Below, piece after piece: positions 3,267 through 12,047 of a stretch of DNA of 12,587 nt. The stretch covers positions 1 through 12,587 of the forward strand of contig JADFON010000024.1 of the NCBI GenBank assembly GCA_022562855.1. The letters run 5' to 3'. Below the pieces are notes generated by a model, which was not told the DNA's origin, did no database searches, and was given only the letters and a program-made list of their open reading frames with translations. Both the position numbers and the translations under genes were made by a program. Source of the stretch: Candidatus Zhuqueibacterota bacterium. Lineage in GTDB: Bacteria; SM23-31. Numbering within the stretch: position 1 is the first letter of the stretch; each line of letters opens with the position of its first letter.

Positions 3267-3740
3267 TTAAAAATCAAATGTTTTATTCTTATGCATCTCG
3301 GTAAGATCTGCCGCATGTCTTTTTTCTTCTTTGATCAGTTCAGCCAGTGTGCTTTTCCCATTTTCTGTTTTCATTCTTTTTAGTATATGTTTATAAAATT
3401 TTACCGTACTTTTTTCGGTCTTGATCCCAAGCTTAATTGCCGTTAAGGGATGAAAATTTTCGACATCGCCTTCATGAATGAGCGGCAATACTTCTTCATG
3501 AGATATTTCTTTAATCAACTCTTTAAGTTCATTATCGATTGGATCGTCTTTGCCTGATGGTTCGGATTCTTTTAACTCTGTGAATGTCTCCGCATGTAGT
3601 AACTCATCTGAGGCGAAGCTTTTGAAAATTTCCTTTGTGGTTTTGTTTTTAGCCAAACGCGATAATTTTTCGTAAAATTCTGCGCCTTCTTTTTCTAAAT
3701 TCACAGCCAAATCCAACAAATCATGAATTTCATTGCTCAT
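3267..3740 (-). CDS. Rubrerythrin-type ferritin-like diiron protein (no rubredoxin domain)
   Basis: A 157-residue soluble four-helix-bundle protein. It carries a full set of diiron ligands in the rubrerythrin pattern: E16 (seven residues before FY, helix 1), E46 and H49 in DELLHAE (helix 2), E109 in TEKSTVKFY (helix 3), and E139 and H142 in EEKRHAADL (helix 4). A charged linker (about 58-80) separates the two helical pairs. The C-terminal Cys4 rubredoxin domain of classical rubrerythrin is absent, and the protein contains no cysteine, so electrons must come from a separate donor if it is a peroxidase. It begins 45 bases after the feoB stop on the same strand, so it is very likely co-transcribed with feoB. 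The context suggests handling incoming ferrous iron or removing peroxide formed by it; iron storage and peroxide reduction cannot be separated from sequence. Confidence 0.88.
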   Translation of the reverse strand: MSNEIHDLLDLAVNLEKEGAEFYEKLSRLAKNKTTKEIFKSFASDELLHAETFTELKESEPSGKDDPIDNELKELIKEISHEEVLPLIHEGDVENFHPLTAIKLGIKTEKSTVKFYKHILKRMKTENGKSTLAELIKEEKRHAADLTEMHKNKTFDF

Positions 3741-3785: not shown

Positions 3786-5924
3786 CTAAAAAGTAATATT
3801 AAAAAAATTTAAAGTAAAGTTTAATAATCCCCCGACAAGGAACGCGAATGGGAAAATAAATCCGACAATCCTTATTGCCGTTTTTAAATTTAGTTCCTTT
3901 ACGATGATGAAAACGTTTGCCACGCATGGTACAAACAACGTAATAGTTATCATTGCAACCAATATCTGATTCGGAGTCAATAATCCGTTTTGCACCGCAT
4001 CAAACAAATAAACCGCCCCAAAATCCCTTCTCAGGAACCCAATCAGGAACGCCTCGGTCATTTCTGTCGGTAAACCGAGAAAACTAACAACAAGCGGACT
4101 TGCAGCGTCACGAATAACAATCAAAAGATTTGTTACATCAAGAAAAAACAATATGATAGTTCCAAGTATAAAAAGCGGGATAACTTCTTTAAAATACCAC
4201 TCCATCCGCGCTGTGGTCTTTATTACTATATTTCCAAGTTGGGGTTTTCTAATCGGCGGTATTTCCAGGATAAATGCCGAGGAATCACCTTTCAACACTT
4301 TCGAGGCTAAGAATCCCACCGATAACAGCACTCCAACGACCAGTCCCAGCCAAACCATCATGGCGCCTATAGATACAGTGCTGACCAACGCCAGTAAAAC
4401 GCCAAGCTGTGCAGAACAAGGTATGCCGAGGGCAAGAAGAAGCGTTACTATGATTCTTTCTTTTCTCGTTTCCATAATTCTTGCCGTCATTGTCGCCATT
4501 GTGTCGCAGCCCAAGCCCAATACCATCGGTAATATTGCTTTACCGTTCAAACCGACCATCTTAAAAACCCTGTTCAGCATTACAGCGAGACGCGGTAAAT
4601 AACCGGTATCCTCGAGAATACTGAATAGTAAAAAAAATGTCCCGACAATAGGAAGGACTATGGCAATACCGTAAGATAGAGCCATTGTTATCACGCCATA
4701 ATCACCCACGAAAAAATCGTGAACAACCTTTAACGAGGTCTGCAATAAAGTGAGAGAAACTCCATCGGGAACAGAATAATTGGGTATAACCACTTCACGC
4801 GAAAACGCGATTCCCGTTTCAATTCCATGGGAGGAAGTAAGAGGAATGGTAAATTCCCAGCTTAAGGTATCCAGCACATGGGAATGATTAAACGGTAATA
4901 TCCAGTCAAAAATTCGAATTGCCATTGGATTTATATATTGTCCGAACAAACCGACTTCAAAGAAATCAACCAGAGTCCCTGCACCGAATAATCCAACAAA
5001 CCAATAAGTAAAATATAATACCGCCAGAACTACTCCTATCCCCCAAGCCGGATGCATAGCCAATTTGCCTACTTCTGTTGCAATTAGTTTCGAAGTAACA
5101 GGACTGACAACATAAACCTCGTCCATAATTTTGTCCACGTGGGACATACGGAATTTAGCGATAACGTTTTGCAGACGGTCTTTATAATGTGTTTGTGCTT
5201 GATTTATAATATCGTTTATCCGGTCGATTGAGTCGGATGAAACGGATTCCTGAAGCCATTTACTAAGAGATGTGTCACTTGATAAAAGCATGAGAGCAAG
5301 AGACCTCTTAGAAATCGTACAATCCGGAAGCAGATCTTCGATTTTACTAATCCCATATTCAATTTCACTGGGATATTGATAGCCATACCGGGATTCTCGC
5401 GCGTCCTGAAGGCTTTGCTTTACTTGTTGTAGACCTTTTCTCTGAGTAGCAGTTGTAGGTATAACCGGTATTCCAAATAAATCTTCCAATTTATCGATAT
5501 TTATCGAGATACCTCTTGAATGCGCCTCGTCCGCCATATTCAGCGCCAATACAAATGGAATCTTCATTTCGGCAAGTTGTATAGTTACATATAAACTCCG
5601 GCGAAGATTCTTGGTGTCCGCCACCTGCAACACGGTTTTGTAATCACCCGAAAGAAGTAAATCACGAGTTGCTTTTTCATCTTCGGACTGGGGAGTAAAG
5701 TCGTTTGTTCCCGGAGTATCCGTGACTTTCAGCGTTTCACCGTTCAAGCTCATTTTGCCATGACTTAAGGTGACAGTCGTGCCCGGATAATTAGAAACCG
5801 TTACATATTTGCCGGTAAGGTATCCGAATACAACGCTTTTGCCAACATTTGGATTACCAACCAGTACTATGGATGAGTTGTTATTTGAAGTTGTTGTTTT
5901 GTGGGATATATCTGTTTGAGCCAC
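3786..5924 (-). CDS. feoB: Ferrous iron transporter FeoB
   Basis: A 712-residue inner-membrane Fe(II) importer with an N-terminal GTPase. G1 GNPNVGKS (23-30), the G2 threonines in NYPGTT (45-50), G3 DTPG (69-72) and G4 NMAD (129-132) are all present. The membrane part follows from about residue 290. Gate 1 is GLGCDTMATMTAR (470-482, C473), where the family usually has a V-PA core; a further cysteine lies in IPCSAQ (C503), and Gate 2 is LFVPCVAN (C667). Length is within the family range (E. coli about 773). The start is GTG at 5924-5922: an in-frame stop lies five codons upstream and no in-frame ATG precedes the G1 motif. The ribosome binding site is weak. No FeoA or FeoC gene is seen in the window; the next gene downstream is the ferritin-like protein. 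Specificity for ferrous iron rests on family membership. Confidence 0.93.
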   Translation of the reverse strand: MAQTDISHKTTTSNNNSSIVLVGNPNVGKSVVFGYLTGKYVTVSNYPGTTVTLSHGKMSLNGETLKVTDTPGTNDFTPQSEDEKATRDLLLSGDYKTVLQVADTKNLRRSLYVTIQLAEMKIPFVLALNMADEAHSRGISINIDKLEDLFGIPVIPTTATQRKGLQQVKQSLQDARESRYGYQYPSEIEYGISKIEDLLPDCTISKRSLALMLLSSDTSLSKWLQESVSSDSIDRINDIINQAQTHYKDRLQNVIAKFRMSHVDKIMDEVYVVSPVTSKLIATEVGKLAMHPAWGIGVVLAVLYFTYWFVGLFGAGTLVDFFEVGLFGQYINPMAIRIFDWILPFNHSHVLDTLSWEFTIPLTSSHGIETGIAFSREVVIPNYSVPDGVSLTLLQTSLKVVHDFFVGDYGVITMALSYGIAIVLPIVGTFFLLFSILEDTGYLPRLAVMLNRVFKMVGLNGKAILPMVLGLGCDTMATMTARIMETRKERIIVTLLLALGIPCSAQLGVLLALVSTVSIGAMMVWLGLVVGVLLSVGFLASKVLKGDSSAFILEIPPIRKPQLGNIVIKTTARMEWYFKEVIPLFILGTIILFFLDVTNLLIVIRDAASPLVVSFLGLPTEMTEAFLIGFLRRDFGAVYLFDAVQNGLLTPNQILVAMITITLFVPCVANVFIIVKELNLKTAIRIVGFIFPFAFLVGGLLNFTLNFFNITF

Positions 5925-6026: not shown

Positions 6027-6241
6027 TCAAGTGATTATTGCGTGAAGAAAACCTAAGGTGCGTCAGGCTGGTTTTAAGGATAGAGTAAAGTATACTGTCT
6101 TAAAAATAAATTACATCCCCCACAGGTAGAAAGATGTAGATTACCACCCCGAAAAGATAGGGGCAGGCGTCTTCTTCCCCTCTGCATGAGTGATAAGAGA
6201 CAACTACGCAACAGGATAAATCGATAAATCTGAACACTTGA
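6027..6241 (-). ncRNA. Candidate structured non-coding RNA, possibly 6S-like (about 215 nt)
   Basis: On the minus strand the two ends are complementary: TCAAGTG (6241-6235 read 5'-3') pairs with CACTTGA (6033-6027). A second arm, TGTTGCGT (6213-6206), pairs with ACGCAATA (6043-6036) inside the first. The second arm contains a G-U pair that would be an A-C mismatch on the plus strand, which favours minus-strand transcription. A 7-bp hairpin (CTGCCCC with GGGGTGG, 6166-6144, nine-base loop) lies near the middle, so the RNA would be a rod with an apical hairpin, roughly the architecture and size of 6S RNA. A -10/-35 pair just upstream predicts a start at the first arm. I do not recognise conserved primary sequence of 6S, SRP RNA, tmRNA or RNase P RNA. 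It could instead be a long feoB leader. Confidence 0.35.
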
Positions 6242-6297: not shown

Positions 6298-6528
6298 TTA
6301 ATAACCCGCCTCTTCGAATTTTTTCATAAGCTCTTTTAACCGCGTGACAGTATAATCTCTTTTGTTCTTCAAAAGTTCATATTCCTTTTCGAGATATGCA
6401 ATCCGCTGATGAAGAGTATTGTTTTCATTTCGGTAGAAAAACACCTTGCCCGCTAAAACAGAAAGCCCTTCTTCAACATTAGACATTGTCCTCAGGATTT
6501 TTTCTGATTTATCGGCTGTATCGGGCAT
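6298..6528 (-). CDS. Small coiled-coil protein, ZapB-like in appearance, paired with the actin homologue
   Basis: A 76-residue soluble protein of unknown family. From about residue 28 to 74 it is a near-continuous amphipathic helix with heptad-like leucine/isoleucine spacing (LHQRIAYLEKEYELLKN, then RLKELMKKFEEAGY), so a dimeric coiled coil is likely. The N-terminal 25 residues are polar with a short hydrophobic patch (VEEGLSVLAGKVFF). It starts with ATG at 6528, 33 bases after the actin-gene stop on the same strand, so the two are probably one operon. The leucine pattern resembles small ZapB-type proteins that bridge division machinery, but helical coiled coils look alike and I do not claim homology. 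Being next to a filament-forming ATPase suggests an adaptor, cross-linker or regulator of that filament. The function is inference; the coiled coil is visible. Confidence 0.75.
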   Translation of the reverse strand: MPDTADKSEKILRTMSNVEEGLSVLAGKVFFYRNENNTLHQRIAYLEKEYELLKNKRDYTVTRLKELMKKFEEAGY

Positions 6529-6561
6529 TATAATTAAACAGGTTATTTCGCAAGTCGTCTT

Positions 6562-7632
6562 TTAAAGCTTTTCCCATTCTTCCACGGGCATATCCTGTCC
6601 CAGTCTTAAACCACCAATTGCCCCGGCATATATCGGATCTTCAGTTAACCGAACTTTCACTTCTCCGAGATCGGATAATTCACTTGCGATTACTTCATCC
6701 AGACCTTTTATACGGCTTCCGCATCCGGCAAGAATGATATTTTCCATCAACAAATTCTGATACTCCTGATCAAACTCGGTGATCATTTTTCTTGTCGTTT
6801 TGATTATGTTGGGCAAAATCGACTCTACCGACTCATATAACTCTTTTGAGATGTCATAACTTACCAATTTACCGCTTACAGAAAATTCCGTCATTATTTT
6901 TGACGGCTTTTTACCTATATGAGCGTGCTGTTCCTTAATTTCTTTCAACCTGAACTGAGAAATACGTGCATTCGGAATTCTTGCCTTCAAAAGATCAAAA
7001 AACTTAGTATCGACTTGATTGCCCGCTGTAAAGAATGTCTGTTGATCTTCTTCTTCCGGTATTGCTCCGTGCATCCTGCAAATGTCAAGCGTTCCTGCCC
7101 CAATGTCAATTATTATTGCAAAACCAAAAACCGACATACCATATGAAACAAGGAAAGGCTCCGAAACGACTAATACGGCATCGACAAGTCCTTCCATAGC
7201 TTTTACCACCGCTTGCCGGTCATTAACGGTGGACCGTGCGGGAGCGCCAACAACCACATAAAGATTTTGCCCTTCTTTTCTCCCAATTAGAGATATGATA
7301 TGATTGATGAATCCTGAAATCGCCTCTCGTTGACGGGAAGCATCTTTTTGATTTCGATGAAATTCAATCACGCCTTTTTCAAGCGGAAAATGCAAATCCA
7401 GTGACATCCGGTTTTTAAAACACTCGTTTCCGAAGACTACGGACTTTCCTACAAGTTTGTAGGCGACCAGGTCCTTTGGGAATCCAACAACACTCGCGAC
7501 ATTCAGCAGTTTTCCTGAGCTTGTGGCGATTGCGCTTTGTGAGGTGCCAAGGTCAATTCCTACAAATAAGTTTTCAGAATTTTGCTGAAAATTACGGTAA
7601 GGTGTTGCCGGATTATCTTCTTTATGGATCAT
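6562..7632 (-). CDS. MamK-like actin-family ATPase
   Basis: A 356-residue bacterial actin (HSP70/actin ATPase fold), expected to form ATP-dependent cytoplasmic filaments. Phosphate-1 loop GIDLGTSQSA (25-34), catalytic-type Glu in VSEPF (E158), phosphate-2 loop IDIGAGTLDI (175-184) and adenosine motif LAGCGSRIKG (301-310) are all present, so it should be active. Several stretches match MamK, the magnetosome-aligning actin, more closely than MreB or ParM as I recall them: SVVGFPKD (48-54 region), SLDLHFPLEKGV (77-88), SEPFLVSYG, EEDQQTFFTAGNQVD (194-208), and the end GGLRLGQDMPVEEWEKL. The ATG at 7632 has GGAG (7643-7640) seven bases upstream. It follows tRNA-Arg by 44 bases and precedes the coiled-coil gene by 33. 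No mamA, B, M, E, I, O or Q homologue is visible, so a magnetosome role is not supported by this window alone. Confidence 0.85.
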   Translation of the reverse strand: MIHKEDNPATPYRNFQQNSENLFVGIDLGTSQSAIATSSGKLLNVASVVGFPKDLVAYKLVGKSVVFGNECFKNRMSLDLHFPLEKGVIEFHRNQKDASRQREAISGFINHIISLIGRKEGQNLYVVVGAPARSTVNDRQAVVKAMEGLVDAVLVVSEPFLVSYGMSVFGFAIIIDIGAGTLDICRMHGAIPEEEDQQTFFTAGNQVDTKFFDLLKARIPNARISQFRLKEIKEQHAHIGKKPSKIMTEFSVSGKLVSYDISKELYESVESILPNIIKTTRKMITEFDQEYQNLLMENIILAGCGSRIKGLDEVIASELSDLGEVKVRLTEDPIYAGAIGGLRLGQDMPVEEWEKL

Positions 7633-7676
7633 GGATCAACTCCAATTTCAAGTAAATGTATCATAAATTGCGTCTG

Positions 7677-7751
7677 TACCCCTGGCAGGACTTGAACCTG
7701 CGACCTTAGGTTTAGGAAACCTCTGCTCTATCCTGACTGAGCTACAGGGGC
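7677..7751 (-). tRNA. tRNA-Arg (anticodon CCU)
   Basis: A complete 75-nt cloverleaf on the minus strand: acceptor GCCCCTG with CAGGGGT, D arm GCTC/GAGC, anticodon loop TTCCTAA with CCT at positions 34-36 (reads AGG), variable loop AGGTC, and T arm GCAGG-TTCAAGT-CCTGC. CCA is not encoded. Two imperfections are visible: a G1-U72 wobble at the top of the acceptor stem and a G27-A43 mismatch closing the anticodon stem. The invariant T-loop and D-arm features are intact, so it is probably functional. The MamK-like gene starts 44 bases downstream on the same strand and may share its transcript. Confidence 0.95.
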
Positions 7752-9686: not shown

Positions 9687-12047
9687 TTGAAATCCTTATT
9701 GACACGACAGTATTTCACTATAGCTTTTCTTTCTTTCTTGATGCTCAATTCATCCTGTTCATTATTTAGAGCAGGGGACAAATCGTATTCACAGCTTACC
9801 GAGAGCATGGAAGGAATCGATACGCGTCCGTTAGAGGGAAGGGTGATCGTTCTTGACCCCGGACACGGCGGTCCTGCACCCGGGGCGGTAGGCACAGGTG
9901 GATTGACGGAAAAGCAGGTCAACCTGAACGTTGCCTTGAGACTGCAATCTTATCTTGAAAACGCAGGTGCAAAGGTAGTTATGACCCGAAGTGTAGATAC
10001 GGGAATGATTGCAGGTAGAATTGACTCTCTCAGGGGCGACGACCTCGACTTTCGCGTCCGGATGTCGGAAAATGAGGAAGCCGATTTATTTATTTCATTG
10101 CACCATAATTCGAACTTACCTCTTAACCGGGATTACAGCGCTATAGAAACATATTATAAAATGGAGGATTATTTTGCTTCTAAGGATGCTGCGCGGATGA
10201 TTCATAAACACTTAGTGAAAAATTTACAAATTCCTCTGAATTTTCTCCTTCCCGGCAACTATTATGTATTGAGAAATAATTCGAGAACTGCGATTCTTGG
10301 AGAAGCATCGTATATATCCAACCCTTCTTTAGAAAAAAAGTTGTCAAATAGTGAGAGTATCGAAATCGAAGCAAGCAGTTATTTTCTTGGGATATTGGAT
10401 TATTTTTCGAGAGGTGTTCCCAGAATTACCGGTGTAACACCGGCAGAGGATGAGGTCGTATACACCGATATGCCGGTTTTTAAAATATCGGTGCTTGAAG
10501 ACGAATATGGAGACGGGATTGATGAACAATCGATATTAATAGGTATCGACGATGAAGAAATTCCTTACACATATGGCTCTTCTCTTATTACAGCGGTCCC
10601 GTCAAAACCGCTGAGCAGTGGTGAACATAATCTGTTTGTAAACGTTGTCAATATTAAAGGTAATCATTCCCTGTTATATGAGTCCCGGTTCATGGTAGAT
10701 ATTCCGCCGGCTCATATTGTGGTAACTCATTCTCCGGGTTCCGTTCCACCTGACAGAATTACGCCTCTCACCATATCGGCGACGGTAATCGATAAGAATA
10801 ACGCCGCTGTTAAAGACAGCACCCCTGTACATATCAAATTCGAAGACGATTCCGGTTCCGAAGAGCTAAATTACACAAAAAATGGGGTTGTAAGGTTCTA
10901 TTACTCATACTTTAAAGAAGGCACTATCCCCTATACAATTCGTTCGGGAGATATTTCATATCAAGGCGCCCTTGTAATAGAAAACCGTGATAAACCGCTA
11001 TTGCTGCTAACCTTCACCAAGAAAGGAAATCCAAATGAGAGACTAAGGAACGTCCTTGTCGGTTTGAACGGCGGACAATTTGGATATACGAACGGCGACG
11101 GGAATATTTCATTCGAAAATCTTGAACAGGGTGAATACACTATTTCTGCAAATCTCCCGGGTTATTATCCTGCAAACCTTCAGCGACGCGTTTCCGGTAA
11201 CAGTTCTCATATTGAATCAGTCAATCTTGAACCAATGTACAGCAGTATCCTGTTTGGAAAAAGAATACTGATCGATCCCGAATTCGGAGGATTGGCATCC
11301 GGTTCAGTTGGACCGTCGGGTCTTCGCGCCGCCGATGAAAATATGGAAACAGCGCGCTACCTCGTGAATCTTCTCAAGGCTGCGGGAGCGGATTCCCGGC
11401 TTACAATAAACCCGGGTGAAGATCTGACGCCCTACTCAAGAGTTCGGCTGTCAAACGAATTCGATGCGCAATTATTTGTCTCGATTCGTCATTCCTCAAG
11501 CACAAATCCGAAAAATGAAGGACTTGCAACCTATGCCTACCCTACAAGCGTCAACGGCAAAAGACTTGGTGCGCTGGTGCTCAACTCAATGACCGATATA
11601 ATGAATTCAAGAGGCGCCGGCCCCATAGAATCAGCCGACTATGTATTGCAGCAAACAGGATGTCCTGCGGTAATAATAAATCTCGGGAACGTTTCAAACC
11701 CGGAAATAGAAGAGGAACTTTATGCATCGAGAAGGAACAGGCTTGAGGCTTATACGGTTTTTACAGCCTTACTGAAATATTATGCCGGAGCATCGAGTGA
11801 CTGGGGAGAATTTTCGGGGAGAATCGTCGATTCTGAAGGAAAACCGGTCGGCAATGCGGTCATCAGCCTTGATAAAACTATTGTAATTCAAAGCGACAGC
11901 AACGGAAGATTCAAGTTCATTGCCCTTGAAAACCGGGAATATTCCGTTTCAATTCAGGCTAAGGAATATAGATCGTTAAACGAAAAATTTGTGATTTCAA
12001 AAAACGACCGGTTGGAAAGAAATTTTACCCTTGTAAGAAACAGGTAG
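9687..12047 (+). CDS. Modular N-acetylmuramoyl-L-alanine amidase lipoprotein with a second, degenerate amidase domain
   Basis: A 786-residue exported protein. A hydrophobic signal (8-20) runs into LNSSC (C24), an imperfect lipobox, so a periplasmic lipoprotein is likely. Domain 1 (about 50-243) is an intact Amidase_3 zinc amidase: H60 in DPGHGG, E75 in LTEKQVNL, H139 in SLHHNS, catalytic E206 in GEASYISN. It should cleave the lactoyl-alanine amide bond of peptidoglycan. Residues 244-435 look like two beta-rich Ig-type modules; 437-513 and 708-783 are CarboxypepD_reg-like modules. Domain 2 (about 520-700) is clearly homologous to domain 1, but the aligned residues are F533, A548, R601 and N665, so it cannot be a zinc amidase. 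The start is TTG at 9687: it sits right before the signal peptide, with an in-frame stop seven codons upstream, but has no clear ribosome binding site. Cell separation or flagellar/envelope remodelling are possible roles (inference). Confidence 0.9.
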   Translation: MKSLLTRQYFTIAFLSFLMLNSSCSLFRAGDKSYSQLTESMEGIDTRPLEGRVIVLDPGHGGPAPGAVGTGGLTEKQVNLNVALRLQSYLENAGAKVVMTRSVDTGMIAGRIDSLRGDDLDFRVRMSENEEADLFISLHHNSNLPLNRDYSAIETYYKMEDYFASKDAARMIHKHLVKNLQIPLNFLLPGNYYVLRNNSRTAILGEASYISNPSLEKKLSNSESIEIEASSYFLGILDYFSRGVPRITGVTPAEDEVVYTDMPVFKISVLEDEYGDGIDEQSILIGIDDEEIPYTYGSSLITAVPSKPLSSGEHNLFVNVVNIKGNHSLLYESRFMVDIPPAHIVVTHSPGSVPPDRITPLTISATVIDKNNAAVKDSTPVHIKFEDDSGSEELNYTKNGVVRFYYSYFKEGTIPYTIRSGDISYQGALVIENRDKPLLLLTFTKKGNPNERLRNVLVGLNGGQFGYTNGDGNISFENLEQGEYTISANLPGYYPANLQRRVSGNSSHIESVNLEPMYSSILFGKRILIDPEFGGLASGSVGPSGLRAADENMETARYLVNLLKAAGADSRLTINPGEDLTPYSRVRLSNEFDAQLFVSIRHSSSTNPKNEGLATYAYPTSVNGKRLGALVLNSMTDIMNSRGAGPIESADYVLQQTGCPAVIINLGNVSNPEIEEELYASRRNRLEAYTVFTALLKYYAGASSDWGEFSGRIVDSEGKPVGNAVISLDKTIVIQSDSNGRFKFIALENREYSVSIQAKEYRSLNEKFVISKNDRLERNFTLVRNR

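Follow-up and report, generated by a model that had tools for sequence, protein, structure and literature searches.

A MamK-family actin-like ATPase and an adjoining coiled-coil gene outside a magnetosome cluster in the phylum SM23-31

Two adjacent genes of an uncultured bacterium from the little-known phylum SM23-31 probably encode a non-magnetosomal MamK-type filament, which would bind ATP and position cargo, together with its dedicated coiled-coil adaptor; we give this reading a probability of about 0.68. The pair is located in a window of 12,587 nucleotides that represents the whole contig C420 of the draft genome G000 (2.5 Mb, 491 contigs, 79.6% complete). Both genes are carried by the minus strand: the first codes for an actin-like ATPase of the MamK family, 356 amino acids long (6562..7632), and the second for an all-helical, weakly ZapB-like coiled-coil protein of 76 amino acids (6298..6528), the proposed filament adaptor. 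These two ORFs and the 33-bp gap between them agree exactly with the coordinates of the initial annotation, which had envisaged, as one of two possibilities, a two-component cytoskeletal system made of a filament and its adaptor and acting in something other than magnetosome alignment. This view is favored here, as the ATPase is not an MreB, FtsA, PilM or ParM and the adjacency of the coiled-coil gene is conserved.

SM23-31 is the GTDB name of a phylum termed Candidatus Sonubiota in PMC11382960, and six of its genomes (among them G000, G001, G002, G004 and G005) have been analyzed. G000, G001 (PL23a_bin.125) and G002 (bacterium SM23_31, LJUD01) represent three genera of one family and are ~80%, 76% and 63% complete, respectively; G005 (CSMAG_2693) is a class-level relative of the window genome. 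An alignment-based scan of genome contigs returned 80 loci with relatives of the ATPase. A single-sequence scan returned nothing, and no relative was found in the viral contigs scanned. In these loci, genes were delimited as simple ORFs, so that a part of the background ORFs may not be genuine.

MamK is the best family for the ATPase, both by sequence and by fold. The likeness to MamK over its whole length, put forward at the outset, is confirmed: residues 22-356 match the NCBIfam MamK model NF040964 (E-value 1.5e-108). With 362.8 bits, the ATPase falls short of the 400-bit cut-off of this subfamily model; its orthologue in G001:C218 passes it with 409.9 bits. The score against BeeR (NF053558) is 180.3 bits, below a cut-off of 530 bits. 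The best sequence match in the PDB is MamK 5ljw (E-value 1.4e-68, 35-36% identity). The MamK-like C-terminus that had been pointed out is also recovered, GGLRLGQDMPVEEWEKL of the ATPase aligning with GALRLAEELPPQYWRQL of AMB-1 MamK. The AlphaFold2 model (pLDDT 91) comprises a disordered segment (residues 1-20) followed by an actin fold (residues 21-356). Its best structural match is the MamK filament subunit 5ljv (Z 43.2, 1.4 Å over 325 residues), as compared to Z values of 39.0 for BeeR and about 33 for MreB and actin. The catalytic residues E158 and D176 correspond to E143 and D161 of AMB-1 MamK; the Asp is invariant in 47/47 aligned proteins, and the Glu is found in 43 of them. Mutating the conserved Glu or Asp in actins abolishes ATPase activity and filament dynamics (PMC5059902). 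Second MamK-like paralogues in the same family, L003 (G001:C137), L005 (G002:C82) and L006 (G001:C3), harbor a Gln at the position of the catalytic Glu, SQPF replacing SEPF. L003 and L005 are located near NfeD-type genes and a gene for a conserved 409-residue protein, L003 being also near a slipin gene.

The phylogeny separates the ATPase from nearly all sampled island-linked MamK. A careful tree assembles 81 proteins with BeeR as the outgroup, and a quick tree includes MreB; support is given below as ultrafast bootstrap/SH-aLRT. AMB-1 MamK, the other magnetosome-linked MamK of the set and paired MamK-like genes form a clade (99/95), and the window ATPase is outside it. The ATPase groups with that of G002 (100/99), then with that of G001 (100/96). 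The SM23-31 group, together with one Glassbacteria sequence, is supported at 100/96 and joins Latescibacterota, Handelsmanbacteria and Gemmatimonadota sequences at 99/99; the Planctomycetota sequences form a further group (100/100). L094, a Nitrospinota MamK encoded beside mam genes, falls on the window's side of the quick tree with a very long branch. It was left out of the careful tree; the magnetosome-linked clade contains nearly all, and not all, of the sampled island-linked MamK. The tree sampled no greigite-type MamK or Mad28 by name, and the bin names of several of its records are possibly wrong. As to a placement within MreB, FtsA, PilM or ParM, which the initial annotation had set against its own reading, the ATPase is none of the four.

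The 76-residue ORF is a real gene, since its homologues, at 57, 41 and 28% identity, adjoin MamK-family genes in three other genomes and the differences with the nearest homologue are mostly at third codon positions (26/19/40). Its product is modeled as a single 72-residue helix (pLDDT 95). The initial expectation that it would accompany the ATPase in related genomes is borne out: with a four-member profile, the gene is detected once per genome in 4/4 SM23-31 genomes with the ATPase, always adjoining an orthologue. In the two SM23-31 genomes without the ATPase, one gives no coiled-coil match and the other only a match of 17.8 bits, interrupted by two stop codons. No coiled-coil gene of this kind adjoins the second MamK-like paralogues of G001 and G002.

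The surroundings of the pair are themselves conserved. Upstream of the ATPase gene are found CoaX, a Crp-type regulator and, directly next to it, tRNA-Arg(CCT) (7676..7751, minus strand); in the two further genera of the family, the orthologue likewise has this tRNA ahead of it. Downstream of the pair follow the FeoB ferrous iron transporter (3786..5924, minus strand), the sole one found in G000, a rubrerythrin/ferritin-like protein (3267..3740, minus strand), conserved in G001:C218, and a polysaccharide flippase. In all three genera of the family, tRNA-Arg is followed by the ATPase, the coiled coil and FeoB, the latter lying 3' of the coiled-coil gene, and the window and G001 have the same arrangement all the way between CoaX and the flippase. 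As this conserved order spans CoaX, Crp, FeoB, rubrerythrin and the flippase, the adjacency may in part reflect nothing more than synteny. In G005, the coiled-coil gene is located upstream of the ATPase gene instead of downstream, still adjacent, and a ParB-like gene lies downstream. The FeoB and rubrerythrin neighbors hint at iron, or may be plain synteny as well. FeoB may form a separate transcript from the pair, a terminator-like hairpin (6112..6138, minus strand; a consensus match only) being predicted between them. Elsewhere in the window, positions 9687-12047 of the plus strand encode a 786-residue protein with two Amidase_3 and two carboxypeptidase regulatory-like matches.

Coiled-coil genes recur next to MamK-family genes that are located off magnetosome islands. 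All seven Latescibacterota-type loci encode a coiled-coil protein of 174-189 residues, 31-81 nt downstream of the MamK-family gene. In Planctomycetota, a coiled-coil ORF is located upstream in 16 of the 17 loci having an upstream ORF; boundaries in these GC-rich loci are approximate because genes were called as simple ORFs, and some of the called upstream ORFs are far longer than their family. In a paired type (Desulfobulbaceae, Myxococcota and others), a membrane-anchored coiled coil lies between two MamK-like genes in 9/10 loci, coiled-coil scores having been computed in four of them. Such scores, calculated with an approximate COILS-type matrix and used solely as a ranking against background ORFs, are reached by 3% of 495 background ORFs. 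The neighboring coiled-coil genes in the other phyla belong to different families.

These loci exhibit diverse gene arrangements. Loci of the paired type, in which two MamK-like genes flank a membrane-anchored coiled-coil gene (L061, L067, L075, L078, L080, L092, L095, L098, L099 and L101), have no mam genes in their fetched flanks and are nested near magnetosome MamK in the tree. In Planctomycetota (L042, L049-L056, L058, L059, L063, L065 and L074), the coiled-coil gene is followed by the MamK-like gene and is mostly preceded by a ParA/BY-kinase-like ATPase gene. The MamK-like gene is followed by a ParB-like gene in L031, L032, L035, L038, L045 and L008 (10460-11074), the ParB-like gene not being seen in L035, where the contig ends; in the Latescibacterota-type loci of this set, a TPR gene precedes the MamK-like gene. 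G005 also possesses a ParA-response regulator fusion near its MamK-like gene. In L047 (7758-14000) and L060 (7226-15506), from KSB1 and Caldithrix, the MamK domain is C-terminal in a 707- or 1254-residue protein, and the gene for this protein adjoins another MamK-like gene as well as genes for a Roadblock/LC7 protein and for an Arf/Ras-like GTPase (an MglA/MglB-like set). The MamK-like gene of L048 is in a contig labeled as a Thermoplasmata archaeon, probably a binning error.

The MamK-like gene is the sole mam-type gene recognized in the 12.6-kb contig, which upholds, for its whole length, the earlier statement that no magnetosome membrane, protease or CDF transporter gene is in view; none are recognized beside the orthologues in G001 and G002 either. 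In a search of the six genomes, MamB, MamQ, MamI and the magnetochrome domain have no match at cut-off in G000, G001 and G002. For MamB and MamQ, which are among the genes that the initial annotation had proposed for a genome-wide search, G000 is also devoid of any match at E <= 0.001. Assuming independence, the joint chance that all three genomes miss a cluster through incompleteness is about 0.2 x 0.24 x 0.37 = 0.02. A magnetosome cluster is likely missing from G000, to be read with its completeness of 79.6%. In G005, by contrast, these searches did reveal a cluster, which shows that the method works in SM23-31. The flanking regions of 36 related loci from other phyla, 519 kb in total, show no resemblance to mam genes beyond generic protease or TPR similarity, and the same mam queries score strongly in most island-linked loci.

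A genuine magnetosome gene cluster is present in G005 and is apparently the first one in SM23-31. Two contigs, L124 (G005:C181, 3641-10752) and L123 (G005:C135, 1-9793), encode MamI, MamE, MamP, a MamL-like ORF, MamM, MamB, MamQ and MamN, plus FeoB. MamP, which includes magnetochrome, reaches 280.7 bits and MamN 372 bits; the mam genes do not reach the curated cut-offs, which is to be expected in a divergent lineage, whereas three of the magnetochrome domains pass. The base and tetranucleotide composition of the cluster contigs fits the rest of the bin. The sole MamK-family gene of G005, located on a third contig, belongs to the window's clade and adjoins the coiled-coil gene. The contig order C145-C181-C135 was tested by end overlap and joining was not shown, so the place of the actin gene inside the magnetosome cluster is unproven. 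A literature search, with most subscription journals outside its range, found nothing linking SM23-31 to magnetosomes.

Among known systems, Magnetospirillum MamK (PDB IDs 5ljv, 5ljw, 5jyg) shares with the window ATPase its family, a full-length alignment (about 35% identity), the fold, the catalytic E and D and the C-terminal helix ending. The window ATPase differs in being outside a magnetosome cluster, outside the main island-linked clade and below the family cut-off. Furthermore, its neighbor is a 76-residue coiled coil, whereas that of Magnetospirillum MamK is the acidic MamJ. In bacteria other than magnetospirilla, MamJ-like partners are believed to have escaped notice (PMC10653835). According to the available part of its description (PMC11929497), BeeR from Verrucomicrobiota (PDB ID 8r2n) is a MamK-related actin of bacteria without magnetosomes and, like the window ATPase, has a disordered N-terminus, 30-50 residues long in BeeR and about 20 in the window protein; the two are 28-30% identical. 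That part of the description mentions no coiled-coil partner for BeeR, unlike the window pair. A literature search for MamK homologues in non-magnetotactic bacteria, again with most subscription journals outside its range, returned nothing closer. In Desulfovibrio magneticus RS-1, MamK and Mad28 work with the coiled-coil proteins Mad20/23/25/26 on magnetosomes (PMC12748827). This system also combines actin-like proteins and coiled coils to position an organelle, but its genes are within a magnetosome cluster and act on magnetosomes, and the window pair is likened to it by description only.

In the favored reading, the 356-residue ATPase would bind ATP and polymerize into a MamK-like filament. 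The 76-residue protein would form a short coiled-coil rod, a dimer or higher oligomer, that may bind the filament and link it to other filaments, the membrane or cargo. By analogy, this adaptor would play the role of MamJ or of the Mad coiled-coil proteins for magnetosome MamK. The pair would have a positioning function and, as no organelle-making genes are detectable in the genome, it probably positions something other than magnetosomes. Alternatively, the locus may be a relic or a detached outlier of a magnetosome island, the other mam genes being lost or unassembled and the filament serving, or having served, magnetosomes. tRNA genes are common sites of genomic islands, and the window genes adjoin one; FeoB is present both here and in the G005 magnetosome cluster, and G005, of the same class, combines this cluster with a single MamK-family gene of the window clade paired with the coiled-coil gene. 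Against this stand the absence of any MamB-type match in G000 and of MamQ, MamI (at cut-off) and magnetochrome in the three incomplete genomes, because of which the distant-cluster outlier considered in the initial annotation is disfavored. The reading frames are intact and the catalytic residues conserved across three genera, which argues against a decaying relic. A similarity comparison did not reveal a link of the window FeoB to magnetosome FeoB either: its identity is 32% with the FeoB of the G005 cluster and 34-35% with the other G005 FeoB and the G004 FeoB. Overall, a relic or detached outlier of this kind is unlikely.

It is also rather improbable that the coiled-coil gene encodes a ZapB-like protein of cell division or of the nucleoid, or is a mere neighbor, and is not the partner of the actin. 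ZapB (PF06005) is likewise small and all-helical, and with a Pfam gathering score of 31.5 bits, the G002 homologue passes at 32.6; the syntenic character of the whole block makes adjacency alone weak evidence for partnership. However, the window protein scores just 16.9 bits and that of G005 20.3, and separate ZapB-like genes lie directly upstream of zapA in G001, G002, G004 and G005, apart from the coiled-coil gene, which led us to set aside its assignment as ZapB. The window gene adjoins an actin and not zapA, of which G000 shows a sub-threshold match only; comparing the profiles of the coiled-coil family and of the separate ZapB-like genes gives only 29% probability. The coiled-coil protein is therefore at most ZapB-like in build. 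Moreover, its gene lies upstream in G005 yet is still adjacent to the ATPase gene, and other MamK-family loci have coiled-coil neighbors. Finally, a divergent MreB or a plasmid-segregation actin is hardly conceivable. Pfam MreB_Mbl does match the ATPase at 68.5 bits, but the MreB models NF010539 and TIGR00904 give 65.9 and 51.8 bits, both below their cut-offs (293 and 365.75 bits) and far from the MamK score. A separate MreB is encoded in the same genome (G000:C81), and the tree placement and the chromosomal synteny with coaX, crp and feoB also argue against such an actin.

MamK is usually regarded as a magnetosome protein. Non-magnetosomal relatives are already known as a concept from BeeR; the window clade, its coiled-coil partner and the recurrent pairing appear undescribed. 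In Latescibacterota, Planctomycetota, SM23-31 and others, however, a large side of the MamK family occurs off such islands and has a coiled-coil gene as its neighbor. The pair represents a concrete two-gene system for expression and imaging, with which one can test if an older positioning system was the source from which the cytoskeleton of magnetosomes was recruited; with the magnetosome cluster of G005 in a relative, both situations can be compared inside one phylum. A wider and speculative reading, which we consider improbable, places the MamK of compass bacteria as a single branch within a broader class of actin and coiled-coil positioning modules spread over several phyla, the module here positioning an iron-handling body or a membrane domain tied to FeoB and rubrerythrin. 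If true, the magnetoskeleton would derive from a pre-existing, non-magnetic system.
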